Assembly: GCF_000428845.1 (NCBI RefSeq)
Contig: NZ_AUAS01000003.1
Coordinates: 372,001-436,000 of the forward strand
Direction of reading: 5' to 3'
DNA length: 64,000 nucleotides
DNA from: Dyadobacter alkalitolerans DSM 23607
GTDB lineage: Bacteria > Bacteroidota > Bacteroidia > Cytophagales > Spirosomataceae
In this document: positions 11,546 through 25,141 of the stretch, piece by piece
Numbering within the stretch: the stretch's first letter is position 1
Layout of the letters: each line of letters starts with the position of its first letter
Position numbers and translations under genes: made by a program
The notes under the pieces: generated by a model
The model's database searches: none
What the model saw: the letters and a program-made list of their open reading frames with translations, nothing else
What the model was told of the DNA's origin: nothing

Positions 11546-14500
11546 CTAGTACGGCAATTCTCTTACAATCGTCCCATTTGGCGAAACCTCCGCATACTTG
11601 TTAGGGCCGACATTGACTAGTTGAACCTTTGGTATACGCTCGTTACTGGCTTTAATTTCCGCCAGCTCCGCGCGAATTGCTTTCAACTCATTCAAGCTAG
11701 TGTCGTCTTTTTTTGCAACCCCAGATTGATATGTCTGCATGAATGCAACCGCCTCCTTTCTTTCATCCTCGGCGCGGGAAACTCCGGTGCCGTCCAAAAC
11801 ATTGGTTAAGAGATAATCCAAAATGCCTGGTTGATTGTCCTTATTGATGGCTTCAATTAGATCATAGTACTTTTGGGTTGATTTCCTGTTTGTAACATAT
11901 TCTCCCTTTTCAGCTTCAATCAATGTTCCGCCATCACGGTGTCTGCGTCCGCCCACTTCTCCACCAAATTCGTATTCTTCCGGTTGCTGTTGATTAACTA
12001 ATTGAAACGCTTTCACTTTCGCAAATCCGAAAGCAGCAAACATTGCAGCCACGGCCCCCGCAGCTAATGCGACTCCCCACGGTCCCGTCCCAGCGAGGGT
12101 GGCAAAGATCTTAGCACTTGCTGTTGCCAAGGAACTTAATTGAGTTGCCGATTCTATTATCATTTGAGCTTTTTGCGTCCTTTTTTGATCGTCTAATGCG
12201 CGCTTACGCGTTTGCTTAAGCTCCTCCAGTTCTTTTTGACGCAAATCTAAATTATTTGCCAACCCTTGTTTGTTCAGATCAAGCTCGGCTTCCACCTGCT
12301 GTTTCTTTTTATCTATCTCATTATCTATTCGTTGAATACGCTGCTGAGAAAGCTGGTTAAGTGTGTTATAAAGGTCAGTCATTGATTGCTTAATGGACTG
12401 GGCTGCATACTGAGCAAATTCTATTGCTGCCTCGGACTGCTCCTTATCCAGCCCAATTTTGTCCAAAAATTTTTCAAATAACGTTGTCTTCTTTTCTTTT
12501 TTTGACAAATCTTCTTGAGCTGCATCAATTTGTGCCAGTGCCAAATACAATCCTGCTAACCTTGCCTTAGCTTCGGGATCGGATGACGCCTCAATGATCT
12601 TGATTCTCTCTTTAATATGACTCCTTTCCACCTCTAACAGCTGTTGACGAGCTTTTATTTCAAGCGACATTCGACCGTCGATTTGCGCTCGAATGACAGC
12701 AAGTTCAGCTGTTTGCATTTCTTGGTTAGCTCGGTTGTCCAATTTGGATAACTTGTGCTCCATATCAATCTTTTCAAGCTCCTTAGCTTTCTGTTTTTCT
12801 AGCTTCGTTATATCAATCCCAGACTGCTTAGCTAGCTTAAAAAGCTGCTCGTATTTATACTCCGTTTCCTGCAGCTGTTTTTGGTATTCTGTCGAGATGA
12901 TGCCAGTTATTGACCGCTCATTATCTGATATAAATTTGGCCCGCTCCCTATACTCCTCTTCATTGATGAGGTCGCGTTGAAAGTTAAATGGAGCCTTCTC
13001 CTGCTCATTTAATGAAACCGATTTGTCCGGAATTATTCGATTGTCTTTATCAAACTGGCCCTTTCTGGCGCCGGCAAGTATTTGTTTTAATTTCAGAATT
13101 GCCTTTTCCTCCAAGTCAATTTCTTGAAGCTGAAGTTTTTTCTTCTCCTCCAGGTATTTCAGAAAGTCGTCCTTAAATGCTTCGACTTTTTCCTTCCCGT
13201 AGTCTTTCTCAAGTTTCAACAGCGCATCCTGCAAGTCTTTTTCAGCTTTTAAAAGTGCTGTCCTTTGGGCCTTTGCTGCTGCAAGCGCCTCTCTATCTTC
13301 CGGGATAAGTTTGGTTGCATTAGATGTCAGCTCAGCGGTGCTCTTCTTGCCAACATTTGCCTGCAACCGCGCCTCTTCTTCCAGGATTTTTTTTCTGTTA
13401 GCATCAAATGCTTCCTTCGACTTTGAAAAGTTGCGATTAGCAATTGAAAGGCTTCTTGTCATTGCCAAGTCGCCCAGGTATTCAAACCCAGCAATCAAAA
13501 GCATTGCGTCATTTTTTAAGTGCTCCCACCCCACCCCTATCCAGACTCCAAAAGACTCGGCCCAGTCTAAAACATTGTTTTTACTTATGATCAACAGTTT
13601 ATTCAATCGCTCAAACGCCGGATAAGCTTTGTTGTCAACTGTTATTGATGCGTCGTCGATTGATTTTTCCGCGTCAACGAAGCCTTTCGCCAACCGGTCC
13701 ATAAAATCAAATCGGCCAGCACCAGCAGATAGGCTATTTTCAGTTAGGTCAATTTGTTTAACGATCCGTTCAAGCGCAGCAACCGATTCACCAGATCCCT
13801 TTTTAAACTCTGTCGTTACCCCGCGAAATGACAACTGCACCTTGTTACCTTGAACTTGCGCCTGAACACCCAGCTTCGCCAAGGCGTCTGTTTGTCCTTT
13901 ATCTGCTGAGACAATAGCTTCTGAAAATTGAACGAAATCCGCCTTTAATTCTTTGGCTAATATGCCGAGGCTGATAAGTTGAGCTTTTGTCGGTTTGATA
14001 CCGCTTGATGAGAGCAATCCAAAGGAAGCTGTAGTTTGCCTCAATGTAACATCAAGGTCACTCGCAATTTGATCAAGCACGTCCATGTTATCAGTAACGT
14101 CCTTCTGATTGCCAGAAATAGCTAGAAGGCTGTCGTTCATCCTTAAATAGCCCTCCCTCATTCTATATATCGCGACAGTCCCAGCTACAACAGCGGCTCC
14201 TAAAAGGCCTGCGAAACGAGTTGCACTGGTCATCACCTGGCTAAGAATTTTGCCAGACGTACCTGCGTTGGTAGTCATTTCTTTAAACTTGCCGGTAAGG
14301 CTTTGGATCATCCCACGAACGCTCCCAGCTTTTACCTCGGTTTGCCCAAGCGACTCGTTTACCTTTCTCAGCTTCTCCTGAACCGCTTCCAGCTCCTTTT
14401 TAAGCTCATCATGTTTTCCGGCCGCGTTTACTTCGTCGAGCTTTTTAACAAACTTCCCCTGTTCAGCGGTTAGCTGTTTAATTTGTTCACGATATGCTGC

Positions 14501-14710
14501 GAGCGTTGCTTCCATTTCCACCATGTGTTTGGTGTTAACTGAGAGCTCTTTATCCAGGTCTGCCGCGCCCTGGGCCGCGAGCTTGAAAGGGTCTGACCTG
14601 GACATGCGTATAATGGCTTCCTCGTGCTTTTCAAAGCGAGAATCTATGGCGTCGAGGGCTTTTAAGACTTCGCTGACATCAAGTTGGTAAGTTGTATTGA
14701 TTTCTGACAT
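11546..14710 (-). CDS. Phage tail tape measure protein
   Basis: This 1054-residue product has the tape measure layout: a long N-terminal coiled coil (residues 40-130), hydrophobic stretches near 165-185 (FAGLLGAAVVAGTVAIY) and near 880-915 (GPWGVALAAGAVAAMFAAFGFAKV), extensive charged coiled coils between about 470 and 850, and a C-terminal domain with the Bacteroidota motif EAEKGEYVTNRKSTQKY. In phages it sets tail length and helps DNA ejection. It lies downstream of the terminase genes on the same strand, with one small gene between. Tube, sheath and chaperone genes normally next to it are missing. Confidence 0.9.
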   Translation of the reverse strand: MSEINTTYQLDVSEVLKALDAIDSRFEKHEEAIIRMSRSDPFKLAAQGAADLDKELSVNTKHMVEMEATLAAYREQIKQLTAEQGKFVKKLDEVNAAGKHDELKKELEAVQEKLRKVNESLGQTEVKAGSVRGMIQSLTGKFKEMTTNAGTSGKILSQVMTSATRFAGLLGAAVVAGTVAIYRMREGYLRMNDSLLAISGNQKDVTDNMDVLDQIASDLDVTLRQTTASFGLLSSSGIKPTKAQLISLGILAKELKADFVQFSEAIVSADKGQTDALAKLGVQAQVQGNKVQLSFRGVTTEFKKGSGESVAALERIVKQIDLTENSLSAGAGRFDFMDRLAKGFVDAEKSIDDASITVDNKAYPAFERLNKLLIISKNNVLDWAESFGVWIGVGWEHLKNDAMLLIAGFEYLGDLAMTRSLSIANRNFSKSKEAFDANRKKILEEEARLQANVGKKSTAELTSNATKLIPEDREALAAAKAQRTALLKAEKDLQDALLKLEKDYGKEKVEAFKDDFLKYLEEKKKLQLQEIDLEEKAILKLKQILAGARKGQFDKDNRIIPDKSVSLNEQEKAPFNFQRDLINEEEYRERAKFISDNERSITGIISTEYQKQLQETEYKYEQLFKLAKQSGIDITKLEKQKAKELEKIDMEHKLSKLDNRANQEMQTAELAVIRAQIDGRMSLEIKARQQLLEVERSHIKERIKIIEASSDPEAKARLAGLYLALAQIDAAQEDLSKKEKKTTLFEKFLDKIGLDKEQSEAAIEFAQYAAQSIKQSMTDLYNTLNQLSQQRIQRIDNEIDKKKQQVEAELDLNKQGLANNLDLRQKELEELKQTRKRALDDQKRTQKAQMIIESATQLSSLATASAKIFATLAGTGPWGVALAAGAVAAMFAAFGFAKVKAFQLVNQQQPEEYEFGGEVGGRRHRDGGTLIEAEKGEYVTNRKSTQKYYDLIEAINKDNQPGILDYLLTNVLDGTGVSRAEDERKEAVAFMQTYQSGVAKKDDTSLNELKAIRAELAEIKASNERIPKVQLVNVGPNKYAEVSPNGTIVRELPY

Positions 14711-14795
14711 GGCTAATATTATTTTTCGCTATTTTATTATGTGTGCGGTGGTCTTTTCGCAATTGTTCCAACAAACTCCTCTTGCAGCAACCGGT

Positions 14796-15185
14796 TTATA
14801 TTTCGGAATCATTGGTTGCCATTCCACCGATATTCAAATCACCTAAATTGATCGTCACGATATCTTCATGGATGAGAGGAAGAGTCGGATTAGATTGTCT
14901 CAGCTCTGCGTAACTTAACACTTTAAAATGCTCATCGTGATCAAGAGTATCGTCTAATGGCGCAGTCCATATTAGTTCTCCCGCATCATTGAACACTTGT
15001 TCGCCAGGTTTGAACATATGCGGCCGTAAGCAAGTCTTTTCTCCAGTGTCCGGATCAATAAATGTCCAAAAATCGGGTTCCTCGTCGGATGGCAGATTTG
15101 CGAGTTGGGCATTTGATTCCCGTAATGACTCTTCCGGATCGGCTTGGGGTAAGCTGTTTGGCTTTGATTCAAGCGAATTTTTCAT
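14796..15185 (-). CDS. Hypothetical protein of the phage module
   Basis: The 129-residue acidic product is Ser/Asn/Asp-rich at the N terminus (residues 1-35), then contains DFWTFIDPDTGEKTCLRPHMFKPGEQV, which reads as a small beta domain. It lies between the terminase large subunit (17 bp away) and the tape measure gene, the place where portal and capsid genes would start in a complete phage. No family recognised. Confidence 0.65.
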   Translation of the reverse strand: MKNSLESKPNSLPQADPEESLRESNAQLANLPSDEEPDFWTFIDPDTGEKTCLRPHMFKPGEQVFNDAGELIWTAPLDDTLDHDEHFKVLSYAELRQSNPTLPLIHEDIVTINLGDLNIGGMATNDSEI

Positions 15186-15202
15186 GGCGGTAATTTTTAG
15201 AT

Positions 15203-16594
15203 TTAATAAGAAACTCGATGGTAATTATTCTCATACAATTGCGAAAAAACAGACAGCAGTCCATATTTTCCGGCGTCAACACAGTGTCCATTTCGCTCAT
15301 AAGACACTTTTGTTTTTGGGTCCACAGTTTTTTCTTTGAGAAATCCACCAGTTGGACTTTCAATCGTTTCCTGAAGGTCTTTAATGAATTTTGGACACCT
15401 CACTTCGTCAATCCATATCTCAGCTGGTTGATACCCAGCAAATATGTCATTCAGAAACTGCCTAAGGAACTCATTGAAAAACTGCTTTTTGTAAACACGG
15501 TCAGATCCTGAATGTAAGTAAGGTTCAAGGGTCCGCCGAACTGAATTGAATGCCTTGCGATCACCAAATCCTGGTATTCTGTTTTCACCAGAAGCATCAC
15601 CACAATAGCTTACTGGCGCTGGCCCGTAAACTGCTGGATACTTCTTAATCCATTCTTGACAGACGGCCTCAGCTGTGTTGCGTGGATGAGGCAGGCAAAA
15701 TTCATCGTAGAACCGAACTACATATCCCTGGTGACCATTGATTACTTTTGGTTCCAACTGAAAGCATAAAAGCGTCATATAAGGCCAAACATTGAAGTCA
15801 AACGTAAGGAATGACGGGATGCCAGGTAGATAAGGAACCGAGCGTACATGCTGGGTATAATTAAAATTATATATCCATTCATGCCCGTTTGACTCGACAT
15901 ATTCCCAATCACCATCCACAAAACGCTGGTAATTAATTGCAGTCATATTTGTTTTTAGAGATGTCAAATATGACTTAGGGACAAATGGATTGTCTGTCAC
16001 TTTTGCTTGTATGTAGCGCCACGTTTCCGGTAACGTACCTTCAATGAACCGATCATAGATGCGAGTCTTAACCCAATTCTTTGTTGGATTGCATGTGCCT
16101 AGCACCAGTGGCCGAGGTTTGTGACCAAAGCTGTTCGCCTCAGCATTTAACCAGGATCCAGCCCTTTCAAAGCATTTATCTAATGTCTGTTCCTGGAACT
16201 CCGAAAGCTCATCCAATCCGAAGCCATTTACCTCCAAGCCGTGAAAACGGGTCATATCCTTATCCTGGGTAAAACTTTCAGGGAATAGCTGAACTACTGA
16301 GCCATTATCAAACGTGTATGTTAAATCTGCTTTATTCCGAGAAACGATCCGGCTCTTATACCGGTCTTGCGAATAGATATAGTTTACTGAAGGCACTAAG
16401 TTATTGGTGATTTTGGGACGGTCAGCCCGCATGATTGCCCAACGGCTGTTTGGATAAATCATCGCAAGCTCAGCAAACACTATTGCCAGCCAGATCGTTT
16501 TCGCACCGCGGATAGCTCCGCCATAAAGTAGGAAGCTCACATCTGTTGATGACAGCACCTCAATTGCCTCGAGTTGTTTATTCGTGAGCTGCAC
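15203..16594 (-). CDS. Phage terminase large subunit
   Basis: This 463-residue packaging motor has a Walker A-like GGAIRGAKT (25-33), a Walker B with catalytic Glu in GFGLDELSE (D128, E129), a GTCNP coupling-type motif near 175, and a C-terminal RNase H-like nuclease domain with acidic positions in TFDFN (about 265), CGDASG (about 330) and the final HCVDAGKY. Length and domain order are normal and no frameshift is visible, so it looks functional. Its start overlaps the terminase small subunit gene by 17 bp. Confidence 0.92.
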   Translation of the reverse strand: MQLTNKQLEAIEVLSSTDVSFLLYGGAIRGAKTIWLAIVFAELAMIYPNSRWAIMRADRPKITNNLVPSVNYIYSQDRYKSRIVSRNKADLTYTFDNGSVVQLFPESFTQDKDMTRFHGLEVNGFGLDELSEFQEQTLDKCFERAGSWLNAEANSFGHKPRPLVLGTCNPTKNWVKTRIYDRFIEGTLPETWRYIQAKVTDNPFVPKSYLTSLKTNMTAINYQRFVDGDWEYVESNGHEWIYNFNYTQHVRSVPYLPGIPSFLTFDFNVWPYMTLLCFQLEPKVINGHQGYVVRFYDEFCLPHPRNTAEAVCQEWIKKYPAVYGPAPVSYCGDASGENRIPGFGDRKAFNSVRRTLEPYLHSGSDRVYKKQFFNEFLRQFLNDIFAGYQPAEIWIDEVRCPKFIKDLQETIESPTGGFLKEKTVDPKTKVSYERNGHCVDAGKYGLLSVFSQLYENNYHRVSY

Positions 16595-17135
16595 CGATTT
16601 CTAATGTTTTGATTTGATTTGTAATTGGGTCAATCACTGTAAAAGGCGTTGATCGGCTTTGCCCTGCATTATTTGGGGTGTCTGGCGCTTTCGGATTGTC
16701 TCCTGCTCGTTCCCGCCAATTCCTGGTTCTGTTGCTTAGCCAGATCGCAGCGGCTTTTGTGTCGGGCGGGTAACGGGCGATTGTTTCTTCTTTCACCACC
16801 TTCTCGCTGTCCTTTCCATCCTTCACCACAAAGAACTTCGTTTCCGGATGCTCATAACCTGTGGCTCTTTCAAACATTCCCCGGGCTACCTTTGCATCTG
16901 CTCTCCGCTTCCCGCGTGTGAGTGAGTCCCAAAATTCTTCGTGTTCTTTTTTCCACCTGTTAAGTGTTGACTTAGAAATTCCAAAATCCTCAGAAATTTC
17001 CTTGTCCGTCGAACCCAACAAACAAAGCTCATAAACCTCATTTGGATGGAAATTCGGGTCGTATTCAGGGATTCTTCCTGTGCTCTTTCCTTTTGCGAAA
17101 CTATTTCCCTTTGGCGCCGGCATTTCATTGTGCAT
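16578..17135 (-). CDS. Terminase small subunit-like protein, copy 2
   Basis: The 185-residue product has an HTH at about 35-60 (TDKEISEDFGISKSTLNRWKKEH) followed by the EEFWDSLTRGKRRADAKVARGMFERATGYEHPE region and KAAAIWLSNRTRNWRE, a signature of Bacteroidota-type terminase small subunits that recognise the pac/cos site. It overlaps TerL downstream by 17 bp and the paralogous upstream gene by 11 bp. The two tandem copies share organisation (HTH, EEF..S..RGK..AD.KVA, W.RNR) but are divergent. Confidence 0.85.
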   Translation of the reverse strand: MHNEMPAPKGNSFAKGKSTGRIPEYDPNFHPNEVYELCLLGSTDKEISEDFGISKSTLNRWKKEHEEFWDSLTRGKRRADAKVARGMFERATGYEHPETKFFVVKDGKDSEKVVKEETIARYPPDTKAAAIWLSNRTRNWRERAGDNPKAPDTPNNAGQSRSTPFTVIDPITNQIKTLEIGAAHE

Positions 17136-17613
17136 TTACTATTTCGGTTTCCGCGGCAATATTCCTTGGCCTCTTCACTATCTCGTCAATGTCAATGTGA
17201 TTTCTTTGCTGACTAAAAAAATCGGTTCGATTCCTTAACCAGATTTCACAAGCCCTGACATCTCCGGGAATGTGACGGACTGTATCAACTGTACGTAGCT
17301 CCCGCTTGTTGATATCAATTTGGATTTCGAAAGTCGCCTTTTCAATTTGATCATAGCCCATGGCTCTTTTGAAAAGACTATGAGCAACTTTTGAATCCGC
17401 AATTGTCTTCCCCCTTCGGACAGAATTTGCAAATTCCTCATCCTGAGTCTTCCAAAAATTGATAGTTTGCTCACTTACATCAAAGACAAAGCCTAGCTCG
17501 GCATCAGTAATTCCCAGACAACACAGCTTGAATGCTAATATTGAGTGATAGTTTCGCTCATACTCACCAGGCCTTCCCCTTTTGCGTTGCAATTGCTTAT
17601 TTGTTTTGTCCAT
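17125..17613 (-). CDS. Terminase small subunit-like protein, copy 1
   Basis: The 162-residue product is a divergent paralogue of the following gene: a basic start, an HTH at about 34-58 (ITDAELGFVFDVSEQTINFWKTQ), EEFANSVRRGKTIADSKVAHSLFKRAMGYD and a C-terminal CEIWLRNRTDFFSQQ. It is the first gene of the minus-strand packaging operon. Overlapping hairpins lie 50-80 bp upstream (see 17614-17996). Two terminase small subunits in tandem is unusual; one may bind a helper phage site or act as a regulator (inference). Confidence 0.8.
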   Translation of the reverse strand: MDKTNKQLQRKRGRPGEYERNYHSILAFKLCCLGITDAELGFVFDVSEQTINFWKTQDEEFANSVRRGKTIADSKVAHSLFKRAMGYDQIEKATFEIQIDINKRELRTVDTVRHIPGDVRACEIWLRNRTDFFSQQRNHIDIDEIVKRPRNIAAETEIVNAQ

Positions 17614-17996
17614 GGTTCATAGTAATTTGGATGAAGGAAATTTTTTTTATACAATTATCCAAAAAGTTGTTTTTCAATCAGTTAAACAACTGATTATCAG
17701 ATACTTTGTAATCTGTATTGCAAATTAAATGATCAGGTCTGGGAAGAAGATTTTTTAATGATTCCTAAGGGTATGAAATTGAAAGGCTCAAAATCTAGCC
17801 TATGAATATGCAATGCCGGCACAATTAACTTTCGAGCATTTGTTGCCGCTTTGGGAAATTCAAAGAAAAAGGAGGCAAAAAGTAAAATGCCCAATAGAGG
17901 CAGAGATTATTTACCGCCTTGCCGTGGGTGTTAAAAGTTGAGGAGATATTTGTTTTAGTATGGACGTATTTATTAATAAAAGAAATTTTCTTAAAA
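17614..17996. other. Divergent intergenic region with overlapping hairpins
   Basis: No gene is seen in these 383 bp between the packaging operon and the SIR2-like gene. Two mutually exclusive stems share sequence: AGTTGTTT (17665-17672) can pair with 17684-17691, or AATCAGTT (17676-17683) can pair with 17688-17695. They lie 50-80 bp upstream of the terminase start on the minus strand, in a position for leader regulation or operator binding. Weak -7-like boxes occur on the plus strand, none with a good partner. Confidence 0.45.
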
Positions 17997-19025
17997 ATGA
18001 AGATCACTTACCTATTCGGCGCCGGAGCTAGTCACACAGCTTTGCCAACAGTTGACGAAATCCCAAAGGAGTACGAAAAGTTCTTGGAAATCTTCAATAA
18101 CGTCTTAAAAAGTGACAGTCACTCGATTCCACCGATCCCTTTTGAGAGTTATGACAGTATCCATTACGCTCTTCATGGTAGACTGAGATCATTTGTTGAC
18201 CATATCGCGAATCATTCAAGCATAGACACATATGCCAAAAAACTCTACCTTCAAAAGAATTTTGATGATTACGAAAGATATAAATTGTGTCTTTCTATAT
18301 TTTTAGATTATGCGCAGATCTCTCGGGGCCCTGATCAACGTTACGACACTTTTTTTGCGTCGATACTGAAAGAAAACGTGAAGGATTTCCCTAAAAATGT
18401 AAACGTAGTTTCCTGGAACTATGATACGCAGTTCGAAACTGCATATGCTGGCTATTCGGGACAGTATAGTATGAGTGGCGCTACTGACAGCTTGGGGCTG
18501 GTTTTTAAGAACAATTCTTACTCTGATTCCGTAAACCTCAAAGAATTTAATATCGTAAAGTTGAATGGATCTTTGGGGAGCATCTCTAAGGTTGATGATA
18601 CTTTTGGATATCTAACCCCAAGAAGCCCAAGTTTGAAGAGATTATTAAATATGCATGACGTTAATGCTTATGTAACTGCCTTCGAAAGTTTTACAAAAGG
18701 TGAATCGGAATCGCTAATTTCCTTTGCTTGGGAGGGTTCAAGACGTTCAGACATTATTCAAAAAGCGGTGGAAGCTACCTCCGACACCGAAGTTGTTGTC
18801 GTAATAGGATATTCTTTTCCATATTTTAATAGGAATGTTGATCGAAAAATTTTTGACAAAATGTATGGGCTGTCGAAAGTCTACATCCAAGACCCAAATG
18901 CTGAGAGCTTAGTGCAACCTGTCCAGGAACTTTGTCAACGAGTAAATAGACGAGGCGCTAAGAGGGTTGAAGTAATTCCCTTCCAAGGAGTGTCTCAGTT
19001 CTTAATTCCTAACGAGTTGGAATGA
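17997..19025 (+). CDS. SIR2-like protein with altered catalytic motif, putative defence protein
   Basis: From the ATG at 17997 the product is 342 residues and opens directly with the NAD-binding motif YLFGAGAS (residues 5-12), which argues against a longer start. Further motifs are VVSWNYD (N141, D143) and VVVIGYSFP near 270, both typical of SIR2_2-type defence NADases. The usual KLHGS, whose His is catalytic, is KLNGS here (N190). The Asn141 partner is kept. In Thoeris, DSR and related systems such proteins deplete NAD in infected cells; with the His replaced this one may bind NAD-like ligands or use another base (inference). A two-TM protein gene follows after 102 bp. Confidence 0.78.
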   Translation: MKITYLFGAGASHTALPTVDEIPKEYEKFLEIFNNVLKSDSHSIPPIPFESYDSIHYALHGRLRSFVDHIANHSSIDTYAKKLYLQKNFDDYERYKLCLSIFLDYAQISRGPDQRYDTFFASILKENVKDFPKNVNVVSWNYDTQFETAYAGYSGQYSMSGATDSLGLVFKNNSYSDSVNLKEFNIVKLNGSLGSISKVDDTFGYLTPRSPSLKRLLNMHDVNAYVTAFESFTKGESESLISFAWEGSRRSDIIQKAVEATSDTEVVVVIGYSFPYFNRNVDRKIFDKMYGLSKVYIQDPNAESLVQPVQELCQRVNRRGAKRVEVIPFQGVSQFLIPNELE

Positions 19026-19127
19026 TGACACATTCGTCATGGTAAATCTGATTATGCATAGTAACGCAGTATTGCATTTCATCTGCCCATTTATAGGCGA
19101 CAAATCCAACATATTTCTGCTCATCAA

Positions 19128-19757
19128 ATGACAAGAAGACGCGGAGAAAAGTATCGAATCATAAAATGGGCTTTGATTGTTTCAATCTTGACTGGTATTG
19201 TCCCTTTACTTTTTTATTGGTACAAATTCGGAAGTTTTGAACTTAGCGACAATTTGGAAACATGGTCACATTTTAGCGATTTCTTCAACCTTTGGGTGAG
19301 TCTAGTGAGCTTAATTCTGATTTTTTCGTTAACCTATTACATAAGTAAGATCGAAGAGCGGAGATATGAAGAACTGAGAGAACTTGACAACATGCGAAAT
19401 CGCCCAATATTGATCTGTGATACTGACTCCGCTCACTACCATATTGTAAAAAACATCGGCATAGGGCCAGCATTAAACATAAAGGCTTCCATAAAGACAG
19501 ATAGTGGAGAATATTTGCAACCTGTGGCAATCCCTCCTTTAATGGCGGGCGATTCCGCAAAGATCAATTGGATGCAACATTTCAATACTGATTCACCAAT
19601 CAAGTGCTTAGTGTATCAGGATGTCTTTAATAATTTCAGTACTACATTGGTAGACAATACGTTAAACATTGAAATGTTGATTGGCGAAAACGTATTGGCT
19701 GAATTTAAAACCAGCTCGCCGGTTCGTAAGAAGCTGCGTTGGAATGTGGGTTTGTGA
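19128..19757 (+). CDS. Two-TM membrane protein, putative partner of the SIR2-like protein
   Basis: The 209-residue product has TM helices at about 13-32 (KWALIVSILTGIVPLLFYWY) and 52-73 (FNLWVSLVSLILIFSLTYYI), a short coiled segment (KIEERRYEELRELD), and a cytosolic or periplasmic beta domain carrying KNIGIGPALNIKA near 110-122, a motif found in many uncharacterised membrane proteins. It is co-directional with the SIR2-like gene. The layout of soluble sensor plus membrane effector recalls abortive infection pairs, but no family identity is certain. Confidence 0.6.
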   Translation: MTRRRGEKYRIIKWALIVSILTGIVPLLFYWYKFGSFELSDNLETWSHFSDFFNLWVSLVSLILIFSLTYYISKIEERRYEELRELDNMRNRPILICDTDSAHYHIVKNIGIGPALNIKASIKTDSGEYLQPVAIPPLMAGDSAKINWMQHFNTDSPIKCLVYQDVFNNFSTTLVDNTLNIEMLIGENVLAEFKTSSPVRKKLRWNVGL

Positions 19758-20043: not shown

Positions 20044-22563
20044 CTATTGTTGGCTAAATACGGCATCCATAGCTTCATCTAGGCTCTCCTTATCGAAACT
20101 GTTGAAGTAAGCCTGCGTTGTTGACAAGTGTTTGTGCCCAAGTGAGTTCATGATGTCAACAAGCGTTATTTTATTTGTTTTTTTCATTGCCCTGCGTGCC
20201 TTGTCCGCGAAGGAGTGCCTGGCGGTGTGAAACGAGAGCGGACGAGTAATACCACTGAGCTCTCCAATGACTTTAAGTTCTTTATTGATCAATGCGGTCT
20301 GGGAGGAAATATGATTGAACAGTCTGTTTCTAAGTGCCTCCGCCATTGTCCTTTTTGCTAAGTAGGTCACGTATTTTGCATAGGGCTCAGAATCTTGAAG
20401 AATCGGAAATAAATATTCATCACACCCACCCTCGGGACGATAGTAACTTGTCAATATCTTCCAGGAACCGGAATTCAACGCTATGCTTTTCTTGTGGCCA
20501 GTCTTGTCCATTTCATACTCTAAACGCCCGTCTGATGTGACGTTACATTGCCTGAGCTGAATGAGGTCCGCTATCCGTATTCCAGCGTTATAGTAGGAAA
20601 ATAAGTAAAAGTTCCGGCAGTGATGAGTCCAATCAGACCCGCCAGCAGCAATTAAATCTAACTCAACCATAACTTTAATTTGCTCGTCGTTCAGCTTGAT
20701 GCGGTCTGGCAGTACCGACTTTGCGCGGGTATGCGCCCGGAATGGATCTTTCACTATTGTGTCGTCAGCAATAGCAGATCTAAAAACTGAGCATACCCTC
20801 TTCATATTATCATTCAGTGTCGTTCCTTTCAGGCCTTTTGAAAGTAAAAAAATCTTATACTCGGAAATGTGAACCGGCGCTATCTCATTCATTTTGATTT
20901 TGTCATCAAAATAATTTACGAACCGGTCCATTTTGGATTTAACATGACGCTGATATCCAATTGACGAGTCTGATTTTATTTTTGCGAAATGTTTGTCGAA
21001 ATATTCTTTCACAGTAATTTCACCATTAGGTGACTTCTCAAAACTTTCGGCTCCTGGTAATCCCTCGCTAGCGGTGACCCTGGCCTCCTTGAGGTCTGCT
21101 ATCTTCTGCTCAATCGCAGCATTGTACACAGCATGTTTGCTGAATGACGACCTGATCCATTTGCCCTGCCGAGCTTGTTTGTTAAACTGTTCGAATGGGA
21201 TTCGAAATTCCATCATCACTTTTTGGCTTTTCCTGTTTTGGGTTATTCGGACAAAGATAGAGTGAAGCCCGTCATGGTTCGCGCGACTGTTTATCTCTAC
21301 ATTGAAAGTTGCAGGTCGTCTTGCCGCACCCGGGAGAATTGTTCTCGGTCGACTTGCCTTTGGTGATCTCTTATGAGCCGCGGTGTCTGAATCCGGTTTA
21401 TCTAATCTTTCTTTCGGCAAATCTTCAATTCCCCGCATTTCTTCAAATGGTTCATATCTGGCCGGCGTTAGATCTGTTTTGGTTTTGTCGCAAATTGCCT
21501 CTACATATAAAGTGTGGATTTGGGACATTTGCTCAGTTTTCGGCTTGGTAATTTTGGGACATTCTGATTTTTGTTTCGCCGTGAATTTGGGACATTCGCT
21601 TTCGTCACTTTCAGTGAATTTGGGACACTCGCGCAACACTTGGTGAATTTGGGACAGGGTGCCTTCATCTACATTTGTGAGGTCTTGCCACTTATCAATG
21701 ATCCCCTTAATCAGAAAATCATTTATCCAATCCTGCTGATTCAGTTGCCGGTATCGCGCCTCCTCTCTTTGCTGCTTTTTCCTTGCTGCTTCATGGTCTC
21801 GTTTATTTTCCGAATTTAGCTTCGGCCGAAGCCAGTACTCTTTATTGTTTCCGTTCAATACAAGTTCCCTGTCCTTGGGACCAAACGACTCTGTCTCTAG
21901 TAGCCTATTTCGAAATAAGATCTCGGAAACATATTCAACCAGTAAACTTCCAAGTTTGGGGTAGTTTTCTGTACACAGTAAATCAGCAGTGTTTTTAATA
22001 TTAATCCCCTTGGTTTGAAGGAATCTCATCTTAACTACTTTAATTTCTACTCGAACAAGGTTTTGCGGCAGAGAGTATTGTCGGCCCTTATCATAAATTT
22101 TAATGATAAATTCCGCAGTTTGGCATTGATAATAATATCTGTTTTCAATCGGCCGTTCAAAGGGAATGCCCTTATAGGTAAGCAGGCTGGTGAGCAGAAT
22201 ATTGACGTCAAAAGGCAAAACTATATTTACACCAAATTCTAAGTTGTGGAGGCTCACAGACTGCGGAGCAACATCAAGTATAGACCAAAAGTCCGTGAGT
22301 GTCACCAAAAGATCCTTAACACTAAAATTATTGTAATTATGTTTGCCGTCATTGAAAAACTTGTGGATACTTCCAGCTAACAGAAGATTAGTCGAACCCT
22401 TTGCGGTATACGCAGAAAAGGTAAAGCCTTTGTGATGGGCTATCGCTGCTTTGCCGGTGGTGTCCTCTCCGGTTTCCTGGCTGTACCTCCCCTCGAAAGG
22501 AAGCTTTTTCACCAATGCAAGGTAATCCACGTTAACCGGACCTCCTTTTAATCCATCAAACAT
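20044..22563 (-). CDS. Replication-initiator-like domain fused to a tyrosine recombinase
   Basis: An 839-residue, two-part protein. Residues 1 to about 240 resemble phage/plasmid replication initiation proteins of the gene II/X type (LHNLEFGVNI, IKIYDKGRQY, RVEIKVVKM); this match is from memory and moderate. Residues about 250-415 are a charged linker with Cys-Pro-Lys repeats. Residues about 420-839 form a tyrosine recombinase: SAM-like core-binding region, then R in YNAGIRIADL, K in DKTGHKK, HTARHSF, GHKHLSTTQAYF with the Tyr nucleophile, all intact. It may replicate and mobilise the element as one polypeptide. The gene lies 47 bp after an excisionase-like gene. Confidence 0.75.
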   Translation of the reverse strand: MFDGLKGGPVNVDYLALVKKLPFEGRYSQETGEDTTGKAAIAHHKGFTFSAYTAKGSTNLLLAGSIHKFFNDGKHNYNNFSVKDLLVTLTDFWSILDVAPQSVSLHNLEFGVNIVLPFDVNILLTSLLTYKGIPFERPIENRYYYQCQTAEFIIKIYDKGRQYSLPQNLVRVEIKVVKMRFLQTKGINIKNTADLLCTENYPKLGSLLVEYVSEILFRNRLLETESFGPKDRELVLNGNNKEYWLRPKLNSENKRDHEAARKKQQREEARYRQLNQQDWINDFLIKGIIDKWQDLTNVDEGTLSQIHQVLRECPKFTESDESECPKFTAKQKSECPKITKPKTEQMSQIHTLYVEAICDKTKTDLTPARYEPFEEMRGIEDLPKERLDKPDSDTAAHKRSPKASRPRTILPGAARRPATFNVEINSRANHDGLHSIFVRITQNRKSQKVMMEFRIPFEQFNKQARQGKWIRSSFSKHAVYNAAIEQKIADLKEARVTASEGLPGAESFEKSPNGEITVKEYFDKHFAKIKSDSSIGYQRHVKSKMDRFVNYFDDKIKMNEIAPVHISEYKIFLLSKGLKGTTLNDNMKRVCSVFRSAIADDTIVKDPFRAHTRAKSVLPDRIKLNDEQIKVMVELDLIAAGGSDWTHHCRNFYLFSYYNAGIRIADLIQLRQCNVTSDGRLEYEMDKTGHKKSIALNSGSWKILTSYYRPEGGCDEYLFPILQDSEPYAKYVTYLAKRTMAEALRNRLFNHISSQTALINKELKVIGELSGITRPLSFHTARHSFADKARRAMKKTNKITLVDIMNSLGHKHLSTTQAYFNSFDKESLDEAMDAVFSQQ
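21519..21656. repeat. Five iteron-like copies of TTTGGGACA inside the Rep-Int gene
   Basis: TTTGGGACA occurs at 21519-21527, 21553-21561, 21586-21594, 21619-21627 and 21648-21656, with start spacings of 34, 33, 33 and 29 bp. Copies 3 and 4 share GTGAATTTGGGACA plus YTCGC. Copies 2-4 are translated as ECPK(F/I)T, copies 1 and 5 in another frame as (M/L)SQIH, so the DNA rather than the peptide is what repeats. Placement in a replication-protein gene suggests Rep-binding iterons or an origin. Confidence 0.75.
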
Positions 22564-22610: not shown

Positions 22611-22910
22611 TTAACTACGCTTGTACTTTAAGCTTTTAACCTCAATCATTGACCTTTCAACTTCCTCCCTTTTTATACGCACACGACCTCCAATCCTTAC
22701 AGCAGTTATGAGGCCGCGCTTGATATAGTCGTCTAACGTTGGAAGGCTTACCTTAAGCAGCTTAGCCACTTCTTTGCGTGTCGTATATTCCGGCACGGCA
22801 ATTTTTGGCTCTGGTAGTTTCCACTCCTGCAGGGCCCTCACTACCGAATTTTGAATGATTACATCCAGCTCTTCGCCGCTGATGGATGTGATTTGATAAG
22901 TTTGTGACAT
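22611..22910 (-). CDS. Excisionase-like HTH_17 DNA-binding protein
   Basis: The 99-residue product has an N-terminal helical stretch, then a MerR/Xis winged HTH: YTTRKEVAKLLKVSLPTLDDYIKRGLITAVRIGGRVRIKREEV, about residues 42-85. It sits between the RteC-like gene and Rep-Int on the same strand, the usual place for an excisionase or recombination directionality factor. An inverted repeat abuts its start codon (22911-22939) and another lies at 22970-22986, likely autoregulatory sites. Confidence 0.82.
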   Translation of the reverse strand: MSQTYQITSISGEELDVIIQNSVVRALQEWKLPEPKIAVPEYTTRKEVAKLLKVSLPTLDDYIKRGLITAVRIGGRVRIKREEVERSMIEVKSLKYKRS

Positions 22911-23815: not shown

Positions 23816-25141
23816 TCAGCCCACTATCTTTATTGTCGCCCCTTTGAAGTGATCATGCTCTAACATTCGAAGCGCTGTTTCTTCACCTGAGACTTTGATA
23901 TATTTCATAAATGACGTTTCGGTTTTATGTCCAGTTATCTTCATTATGTCTATGCTTGACACTCCAGCCAAATAAGCATTAGTAGCAAATGATCGTCGGG
24001 CAGTATGCGTAGAGATAACTTTATATTTTTCTACATACTTCGTGATTCGCTGGCCCCCCTTCGTCATCGCAACTTCAACCTTACTGTTTAATTCTGCTTC
24101 CTTGCCAACATCTTTTAGATATTCATTCATTTTTTGATTGCTGATTGCTCTCGGAATGGAATGTTTGTGCTTGTGCAAAATAGCCGATACCCGAGGATTG
24201 ATGGGAATAACGACCTTTGATTGAGTTTTTTGCGTGTTTACGACCAGCAGTTTTCCTTCACCCATGACATTCTCAGGCCTTAACTGAGTGAAATCAGAGA
24301 ATCTTAATCCAGTATAGCAGCCGATCAAAAATAGGTCGCGAACATTGTCCAGCTTCTTACTTTTCGATAAATCCACATTATACAACTTGTTCAATTCAGC
24401 ATCAGTAAGATAAATAGCGCCAGTCTCCTCTTTCGGCTTATTAAACTCATCACTTTCAAAGACTCGATTCTCGTGTAGTCCCTCATTTTGAGCAGCCCTC
24501 AGCCAGGCTTTAAGGTGTTTTATCTGATTACCAATACTATTGCTTGCATATTTTTTGACGTTTGTCAGCCATTTAATAAACTCCCTGTGGAAATTAAGGT
24601 CGATGTCTTCAAAATCGATAGGTCCGCCGAGGAAACTTTGAAATTCCTTCAAATTAGTGAGCGTAGTCTGATGTGTTTTCAAAGTTACTGGGACATATTT
24701 CTTATTTTTTCGTCTGATCAAGCGGTCCCCCGACTTGGATTCGTCAATGAATCGCTGAGCAAAGTTCAACAGACTTTCCTTTTGAGAAACCTTCTTCTGT
24801 AGGCGGGAGTCCTTTTTAAATTCCTTGTCCAAATGCTCCTTGAATAATTCCGGAGTCAACTCAATGCCGGATAGATCGAAGCTCCGACGTAATTCAATAA
24901 CCTTTGCGCCGTAGCGGTCGAGTTGAGTATTTGCATCTTTAAATTTCTGCCTATTCTCCCTGGATTGACTTAGTACATTAAACCGCTGTCCGTCCACATC
25001 CCAATCCTGCGGGCGCACTTTTTCGCCTGTCGAATATTTCAACCTCTGACCGTTAAATCGATACAGCATGTAAACCAAAGTAGTGTCCTCCGCCTTGGTA
25101 TCTTTGAGCACAAAGCGTACTTCATTTAATGTCCTTTTCAC
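23816..25141 (-). CDS. Tyrosine integrase of the element
   Basis: The 441-residue product has the Bacteroidota mobile-element integrase layout: an N-terminal arm-binding domain (KYSTGEKVRPQDWD, residues 34-47), a SAM-like core-binding domain at about 110-225, and a catalytic domain with R in CYTGLRFSDF, K in NTQKTQSK, HTARRSF, and GHKTETSFMKYI with the Tyr nucleophile. All catalytic residues are present. It lies 181 bp from the tRNA-3'-end att site and reads inward, so it most likely integrates the element there. It starts the minus-strand recombination operon. Confidence 0.93.
   Translation of the reverse strand: MKRTLNEVRFVLKDTKAEDTTLVYMLYRFNGQRLKYSTGEKVRPQDWDVDGQRFNVLSQSRENRQKFKDANTQLDRYGAKVIELRRSFDLSGIELTPELFKEHLDKEFKKDSRLQKKVSQKESLLNFAQRFIDESKSGDRLIRRKNKKYVPVTLKTHQTTLTNLKEFQSFLGGPIDFEDIDLNFHREFIKWLTNVKKYASNSIGNQIKHLKAWLRAAQNEGLHENRVFESDEFNKPKEETGAIYLTDAELNKLYNVDLSKSKKLDNVRDLFLIGCYTGLRFSDFTQLRPENVMGEGKLLVVNTQKTQSKVVIPINPRVSAILHKHKHSIPRAISNQKMNEYLKDVGKEAELNSKVEVAMTKGGQRITKYVEKYKVISTHTARRSFATNAYLAGVSSIDIMKITGHKTETSFMKYIKVSGEETALRMLEHDHFKGATIKIVG

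Follow-up and report, generated by a model that had tools for sequence, protein, structure and literature searches.

Putative rolling-circle origin iterons within the coding sequence of an initiator-like gene fused to a tyrosine integrase

In plasmids of the pT181 type the double-strand origin (dso) is found inside the rep gene, and the stretch of protein encoded there is dispensable, as described in the available text of PMC5703833. The catalytic residues of the related initiator RepSTK1 are given in the accessible part of PMC4797284 as D9, D116, R177, Y179, K181, Q184 and E196. Replication and transfer functions can also coexist, according to the available portion of PMC5714925. The gene that we describe here invites comparison with these systems, as it carries an array of short repeats between an initiator-like (Rep) domain and a fused tyrosine integrase, and the repeats are read in more than one frame. 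The original prediction, made from this DNA alone, attributed them to a function at the DNA level.

The fused gene and its repeat array

The window, by which we mean the whole 64 kb stretch of DNA that was analysed, belongs to a 6.29 Mb assembly of 50 contigs. The gene (20044-22563, minus strand) encodes 839 aa, with the direct iterons located between the parts for the Rep domain and the integrase (Table 1). Pfam places the integrase in the C-terminal half of the protein, where PF00589 matches with E 6.8e-12 and the motifs GIR, HTARH, LGH and AYF are all present; an Arm-DNA-bind_5 match on the 3' side of the repeats is under Pfam's cutoff. The assembly does contain the fusion to the integrase, and the 839-aa protein may work as one functional unit. 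ATG triplets at codons 346 and 376 are possible internal starts for the integrase. Among the matches listed from 198 related genomes, those to the N-terminal part lie in open frames of ~290-570 codons without the integrase, and those to the C-terminal part belong to integrases encoded on their own. In profile searches of the family, order and phylum the window copy is the sole open frame of more than 700 codons (841, the next longest having 673), so that the fusion is unique to the window among the genomes searched; a Rep-integrase fusion is absent from every other one, within the limits of these assemblies. In the window the C-terminal tail of the relatives' rep is exchanged for a complete tyrosine integrase, and the putative origin DNA would therefore double as a coding hinge between the predicted nickase and the integrase.

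Table 1. Positions in the window of the fused gene's parts, the repeats, the hairpin unit and neighbouring genes
Feature	Position	Strand	Basis or remark
N-terminal rolling-circle-initiator-like (Rep) domain, residues 1-302	21658..22563	-	AlphaFold model, PDB likeness, conservation
Predicted active site of the Rep domain: D3, E109, K155, Y157, K159, E173			
Iteron 1 (gene order), reads LSQIH	21648..21656	-	exact copy
Iteron 2, reads CPKFT	21619..21627	-	exact copy
Iteron 3, reads CPKFT	21586..21594	-	exact copy
Iteron 4, reads CPKIT	21553..21561	-	exact copy
Iteron 5, reads MSQIH; hairpin 5' arm on the gene's strand	21519..21527	-	exact copy
Inverted-repeat unit aligning with the relatives' 28-bp-spaced hairpin	21485..21528	.	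arms 10/16 complementary
Loop CTTTATATGTAG, presumed nick region	21501..21512	-	hairpin-unit alignment
Sixth copy, inverted; hairpin 3' arm on the gene's strand	21486..21494	+	one mismatch (TGTCGCAAA on +)
Residues 347-416, last iteron peptide to integrase; takes in hairpin loop and 3' arm	21316..21525	-	
Fused tyrosine integrase, residues 417-839	20044..21315	-	Arm-DNA-bind_5, SAM_5, Phage_integrase
HTH_17 (excisionase/regulator-like) gene upstream of rep	22611..22910	-	relatives in 39/55 loci
Second, unfused tyrosine integrase, placed upstream of rep as is usual in relatives	23816..25141	-	

The repeat TTTGGGACA (plus strand; TGTCCCAAA as read on the gene's strand) occurs exactly five times, at spacings of 34, 33, 33 and 29, and no further exact copy exists on either strand across the window. 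These are the five copies, 29-34 bp apart, of the original prediction, and their translations as CPK(F/I)T in three copies and SQIH in the first and last are likewise as claimed there. A sixth copy, inverted, had been overlooked. In 20,000 synonymous-codon shuffles, with the protein and the codon pool fixed, the mean was 0.44 copies and the maximum 4, against the five observed. Pairs of TGTCCCAAA separated by 20-30 bp are found four times in the 6.29 Mb genome, all of them in this array, and a control pattern gives none. With one mismatch allowed the motif is no longer rare (29 matches in the window vs 21.75 expected); the signal is the clustering of exact copies.

The relatives are stand-alone rep genes in Bacteroidota integrative elements, and their rep either stops near the putative origin or runs on into a C-terminal tail. 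The genome collection yielded 52 loci, nearly all from Bacteroidota to judge by their titles, and many from Cytophagales genera. A profile of 52 rows found the family in 52/222 genomes of the bacterial family, 49/390 of the order and 26/395 of the phylum sample, these samples overlapping. In viral_contigs an alignment query found three relatives and a single-protein query none. The window's domain matches one record each in the plasmid and phage collections, where the family is rare, a point against an origin; three further queries of the plasmid records gave no match and a fourth matched only the same phage record. In the Hymenobacter plasmid pHsw3 (6,969 bp; NZ_CP007146.1, L008) the family profile also matches a protein (E 3.8e-20), which speaks for a role in replication; this protein is annotated as hypothetical and has a cysteine-rich C-terminal tail resembling that of many chromosomal relatives. 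The plasmid's gene table, which is incomplete, lists four genes and names none of them as serving replication, and a check of pHsw3 for iterons revealed no clear ones, which counts against an origin as well.

A tyrosine integrase gene is present in 41/55 loci, upstream on the same strand in 37/55, and an HTH_17 gene in 39/55. The window's element has two tyrosine integrases, one upstream of the HTH gene and the other fused to Rep (Table 1). Near rep, the window and one relative (L048) have matches to terminase small subunits. Two small-terminase-like genes, a large-terminase gene and a tape-measure gene stand in succession at 11546-17613, and the only ORF between terminase and tape measure is one of 129 aa; portal and capsid genes would not fit into this gap, so the element may be a satellite or a reduced prophage. 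Between rep and the terminase genes, at 17919-19757 on the opposite strand, are two genes that are possibly defence cargo, one SIR2-like (weak PADLOC matches to SIR2) and one of 209 aa that matches no family. An AbiLi/AbiLii-like gene pair is found at 144-2136 (PADLOC E 5.4e-90 and 3.2e-28).

Conservation of the repeats and the hairpin unit

The 9-mer of the window recurs in three loci of the same genus, partly or wholly outside rep: L014 has one copy within rep and two past its stop, and in L018 and L019 the copies lie past the stop. In L021-L023 copies are found inside the gene in two frames, with an inverted copy too in L021 and L022, and one DNA word is read as SQIS, FVPN and, inverted, LGHS in L021 and as SQIS, FVPN and LGQR in L022. 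Copy number ranges from one direct and one inverted copy (L018) to five direct and one inverted in the window. Homologues keep the DNA motif while its copy number varies, the outcome that the original prediction said to look for and that supports it. Many relatives have lineage-specific iterons at the matching place, in all three frames and both orientations.

An unsupervised EM search of 60 non-redundant tails recovered the iteron, TTGTCCCAAATTAACC, with a log-likelihood of 243 vs 48-58 in six shuffled sets. These 60 were kept of 85 after relatives more than 85% alike were removed. Five loci had been dropped beforehand, from 90 for the EM search and from 61 for the synonymous-shuffle statistics: L071 and L077 are truncated, L054 and L088 have stops in frame and L008 is very distant. 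Because regions of fewer than 480 bases were passed over, the motif and held-out tests cover 58-60 regions. In held-out five-fold tests the motif gave 115 matches in 59 tails, compared to 21/60, 16/59 and 23/58 in three control regions, and loci with at least two matches numbered 32 vs 3, 2 and 2. At least two direct matches are present in 27/60 non-redundant loci, a count for which the motif was trained on those same tails, and in 25 of these 27 the copies differ in frame or are partly non-coding, bearing out the earlier claim of a DNA-level motif conserved across frames. With synonymous shuffles (60 per locus), 30/56 loci had values of 0.05 or less in the iteron region and 0/56 in a control stretch taken from those genes; the 26/56 loci that did not pass this test count against an origin. 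Since the motif appears in all frames, in both orientations and in non-coding DNA, selection acts on the DNA. The iteron varies by lineage (TGTCCGAAAT, TGTAGCAAAT, TGTCACAAAT) and within such a locus the copies agree, as would be expected of sites that track their binding protein. The family provides a clean natural example of DNA sites evolving within a gene, with the iteron changing jointly in all copies of a locus.

In the window, the last direct copy and the sixth, inverted one form an imperfect inverted repeat. Among the 60 loci, 31 have a best direct/inverted pair that is complementary at 10/16 positions or more, and 26 of these 31 share a spacing of exactly 28 bp; the motif-based scan left 29/60 loci without a hairpin, which weighs against an origin. 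In the held-out version 28 loci have such a pair, 18 of them at 28 bp and six at 26, probably because one fold's model had its register shifted, and the three control regions together have one. A motif-free search for a 12-bp inverted repeat found it in 27/59 tails vs 6/60, 10/59 and 6/58 control regions. The covariation analysis was run on the 26/60 loci whose arms are spaced 28 bp apart and pair at 10/16 positions or more, that is, rows selected for complementarity: changes occur on both sides in 15/16 pairs, the score is 0.442 vs 0.144 when shuffled and 0.067-0.108 when slid, and pairing cells make up 80.8% vs 61.1% and 24-42%, respectively. Because these rows were pre-chosen, and inverted binding sites also covary, this result backs the unit and not its extrusion.

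As single strands, five hand-picked relatives all fold more strongly than their shuffles (z -6.5 for L014, -7.0 for L040, -5.0 for L113, -5.9 for L043 and -3.3 for L018). The fold of the window is weaker (z -1.17 for the coding strand, -3.40 for the other), because its inverted arm has diverged, and this speaks against an origin. The unit consensus is nTGTCCCAAATTAACC CTTTAnATATAG nGTTAATTTGGGACAA, with a single invariant T within the loop, and the loop, recovered solely by aligning hairpin units, has the AT-rich family consensus CTTTAWATATAG (26 units). A second de novo motif, obtained with the iterons masked and considered as a nick site, was rejected because it mostly reflects the coding of the C-terminal tail. 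The clearest case of this anatomy is L113 (1501-3450), where four direct copies, read as CPKLT, CPKLT, CPKLT and SQINPL, are accompanied by a near-perfect inverted copy.

Fold and active site of the initiator-like domain

The AlphaFold (AF2) model of residues 1-302 has a pLDDT of 94.2 and a pTM of 0.90. Foldseek against the PDB returned six chains at E <= 0.001, all from rolling-circle initiators: 4cwc (RepDE), 4cwe and four of 4cij (RepSTK1). The crescent nicking fold of Rep_trans is matched by the predicted model, as in VIA both RepDE entries score Z 11.3 (4cwe over 230 residues, rmsd 4.3) and 4cij scores 10.6 (216 residues, rmsd 4.5), followed by TBP at 6.7 among the families in the VIA list; the TBP fold was compared to their own by the RepDE authors, in the text available from PMC4797284. 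The top match in a library of viral predicted structures is Inoviridae G2P (E 1.1e-7). A PDB profile search brought up 1u61 (E 0.016), a weak match that we took as unrelated.

When matched on order and spacing rather than on superposed side chains, the catalytic set of RepSTK1, as listed in the accessible text on that protein, corresponds to D3, E109, K155, Y157, K159, Q162 and E173. In 52 sequences E109, K155, Y157, K159, R171 and E173 are invariant and D3 is conserved in at least 90%, with Q162 less conserved than the other active-site residues. K155-x-Y157-x-K159 conforms to R/K-x-Y-x-K with three acidic metal ligands. Searches of Pfam, PHROG and NCBIfam, as well as a PDB sequence search, found nothing for the first ~300 residues, and a 12-member alignment (A1) against Pfam gave chance-level matches only, to single members and at E 0.036 or worse. 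PF02486 is without a match at E<=1 for the window protein and all 12 A1 members, and at E<=0.05 for L113 and L008. The members tested therefore stand outside the models of Pfam, PHROG and NCBIfam (for PHROGs, the window's domain only). The nic core CT'AA of MOBT/Rep_trans sites, as given in the available part of PMC9371924, is absent from the loop consensus of the 26 units, which again counts against an origin. Since the Pfam search and the exact nic core of the Rep_trans family are both negative, we propose that the window protein probably works like a Rep_trans initiator and do not claim membership.

A putative origin inside rep and its known counterparts

Taken together, sequence patterns and the structural model suggest, with a probability of roughly three in four, that the repeats serve as iterons bound by Rep, in a putative rolling-circle double-strand origin within the initiator's own coding sequence. 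Rep would bind the iterons and may help the hairpin to extrude, Y157 would nick in the loop, perhaps beside the invariant T, and leading-strand synthesis would then start on the excised circular element. Of the three functions proposed originally, which included recombinase accessory sites, Rep-binding iterons and an origin appear to fit. More precisely, the anatomy fits a rolling-circle dso with a nick hairpin better than a theta-type iteron origin, at which the initiator would melt DNA at the repeats and no nicking would occur; given an initiator with a nickase fold and a conserved tyrosine, and a single hairpin unit of fixed geometry in place of two iteron sets around a melting region, the theta type is highly improbable.

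The nick could also serve conjugative mobilisation of the integrative element, if the hairpin were an oriT and the protein a MOBT-type relaxase of the same fold. In the available texts of PMC9371924 and PMC6499999, MOBT relaxases do share their fold with Rep_trans and make their nick within the loop of a hairpin, and an integrase, an HTH gene and a nickase, an arrangement to which the frequent integrases of the relatives conform, also make an IME layout. However, the N-terminal HTH of MOBT proteins (in the accessible portion of PMC6499999) is missing here, as the model opens directly with the nicking fold, with strands from residue 4, and Pfam identifies neither this HTH nor the PF02486 that follows it in the MOBT architecture in the window protein. 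The terminase small-subunit genes near rep point instead to phage packaging, and a 7-kb plasmid typed as non-mobilizable has a family member, so that we regard transfer as an unlikely role. It is less likely still that the repeats act in recombination or regulation rather than replication, as binding sites for the HTH_17 protein or for the integrase's arm-binding domain. HTH_17/excisionase-like genes do accompany rep in most loci and the sub-cutoff Arm-DNA-bind_5 match follows the repeats in the fused protein, but the integrase of the relatives is typically upstream, with the repeats on the 3' side of rep and no integrase fused there, and arm sites would not be expected to form a hairpin of fixed 28-bp spacing around a conserved loop. 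Least plausible, to the point of being barely credible, is selection on the peptide repeat CPKFT/SQIH with the DNA likeness secondary. Three of the five copies do give a near-identical peptide, and frame-2 copies in several relatives read C-x-x-L-T; against this, copies are found in every frame (0, 1 and 2), in inverted orientation and in non-coding DNA, synonymous shuffles lose them, and one DNA word yields differing peptides within L021 and within L022.

A rolling-circle origin within rep, as preferred above, would supply a testable origin and initiator for the mobile elements of 52/222 genomes in the bacterial family. What appears to be new is the uncatalogued initiator family, the proposed origin anatomy, and the Rep-integrase fusion of the window with the origin encoding its hinge; among the titles and abstract openings of open-licence PMC papers we recognised no description of this Rep family or of a Rep_trans-integrase fusion. 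In a broader and rather doubtful picture, which we offer tentatively, uncatalogued rolling-circle initiators would drive Bacteroidota integrative elements, perhaps phage satellites, from an origin lying in the initiator gene in three frames, and the window would join nickase and recombinase with the origin as hinge. With both activities in one polypeptide, replication and integration could therefore couple in cis, and the fused integrase raises the question of whether one protein nicks the origin and recombines the ends.

Among known systems, PICIs share the layout of integrase, regulator, rep and an iteron origin 3' of rep, sometimes with terS, as far as the accessible text of PMC6092414 describes them. 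Their trait of an origin with iterons immediately 3' of the initiator is matched here in position and iterons only, and in contrast to the primase/initiator there, the Rep here is of the nickase type. PICIs are also marked by the absence of phage structural genes; large-terminase and tape-measure matches adjoin the window's rep and may or may not belong to the element. Filamentous-phage G2P is the closest viral predicted structure to the Rep domain, although the window's family is found in integrative elements with an integrase, some with terminase genes, and the Pfam model of G2P / Phage_CRI matches neither the window protein nor the A1 members. Rep-Arvir proteins of archaeal viruses and plasmids, compared by their description in the available part of PMC13107129, are also divergent, Rep_trans-like and recognised via RepDE, and likewise have a bind site and a nick hairpin downstream of the initiator gene; they differ in being archaeal and in carrying a MarR-like wHTH domain. 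RepC and RepD of pT181 (Rep_trans), in the accessible texts of PMC5703833 and PMC4797284, are alike in predicted fold, in the order and spacing of the active site and, for the putative sites here, in a Rep-binding site beside a nick hairpin and an origin within the rep coding region. As to position, the window and most hairpin loci have both motif and hairpin within the ORF; in L018, L019 and partly in L014 these lie past the stop. Compared to pT181, the window's family has several lineage-specific iterons, resides in Bacteroidota integrative elements and would have its origin 3' of the segment that encodes the catalytic domain.
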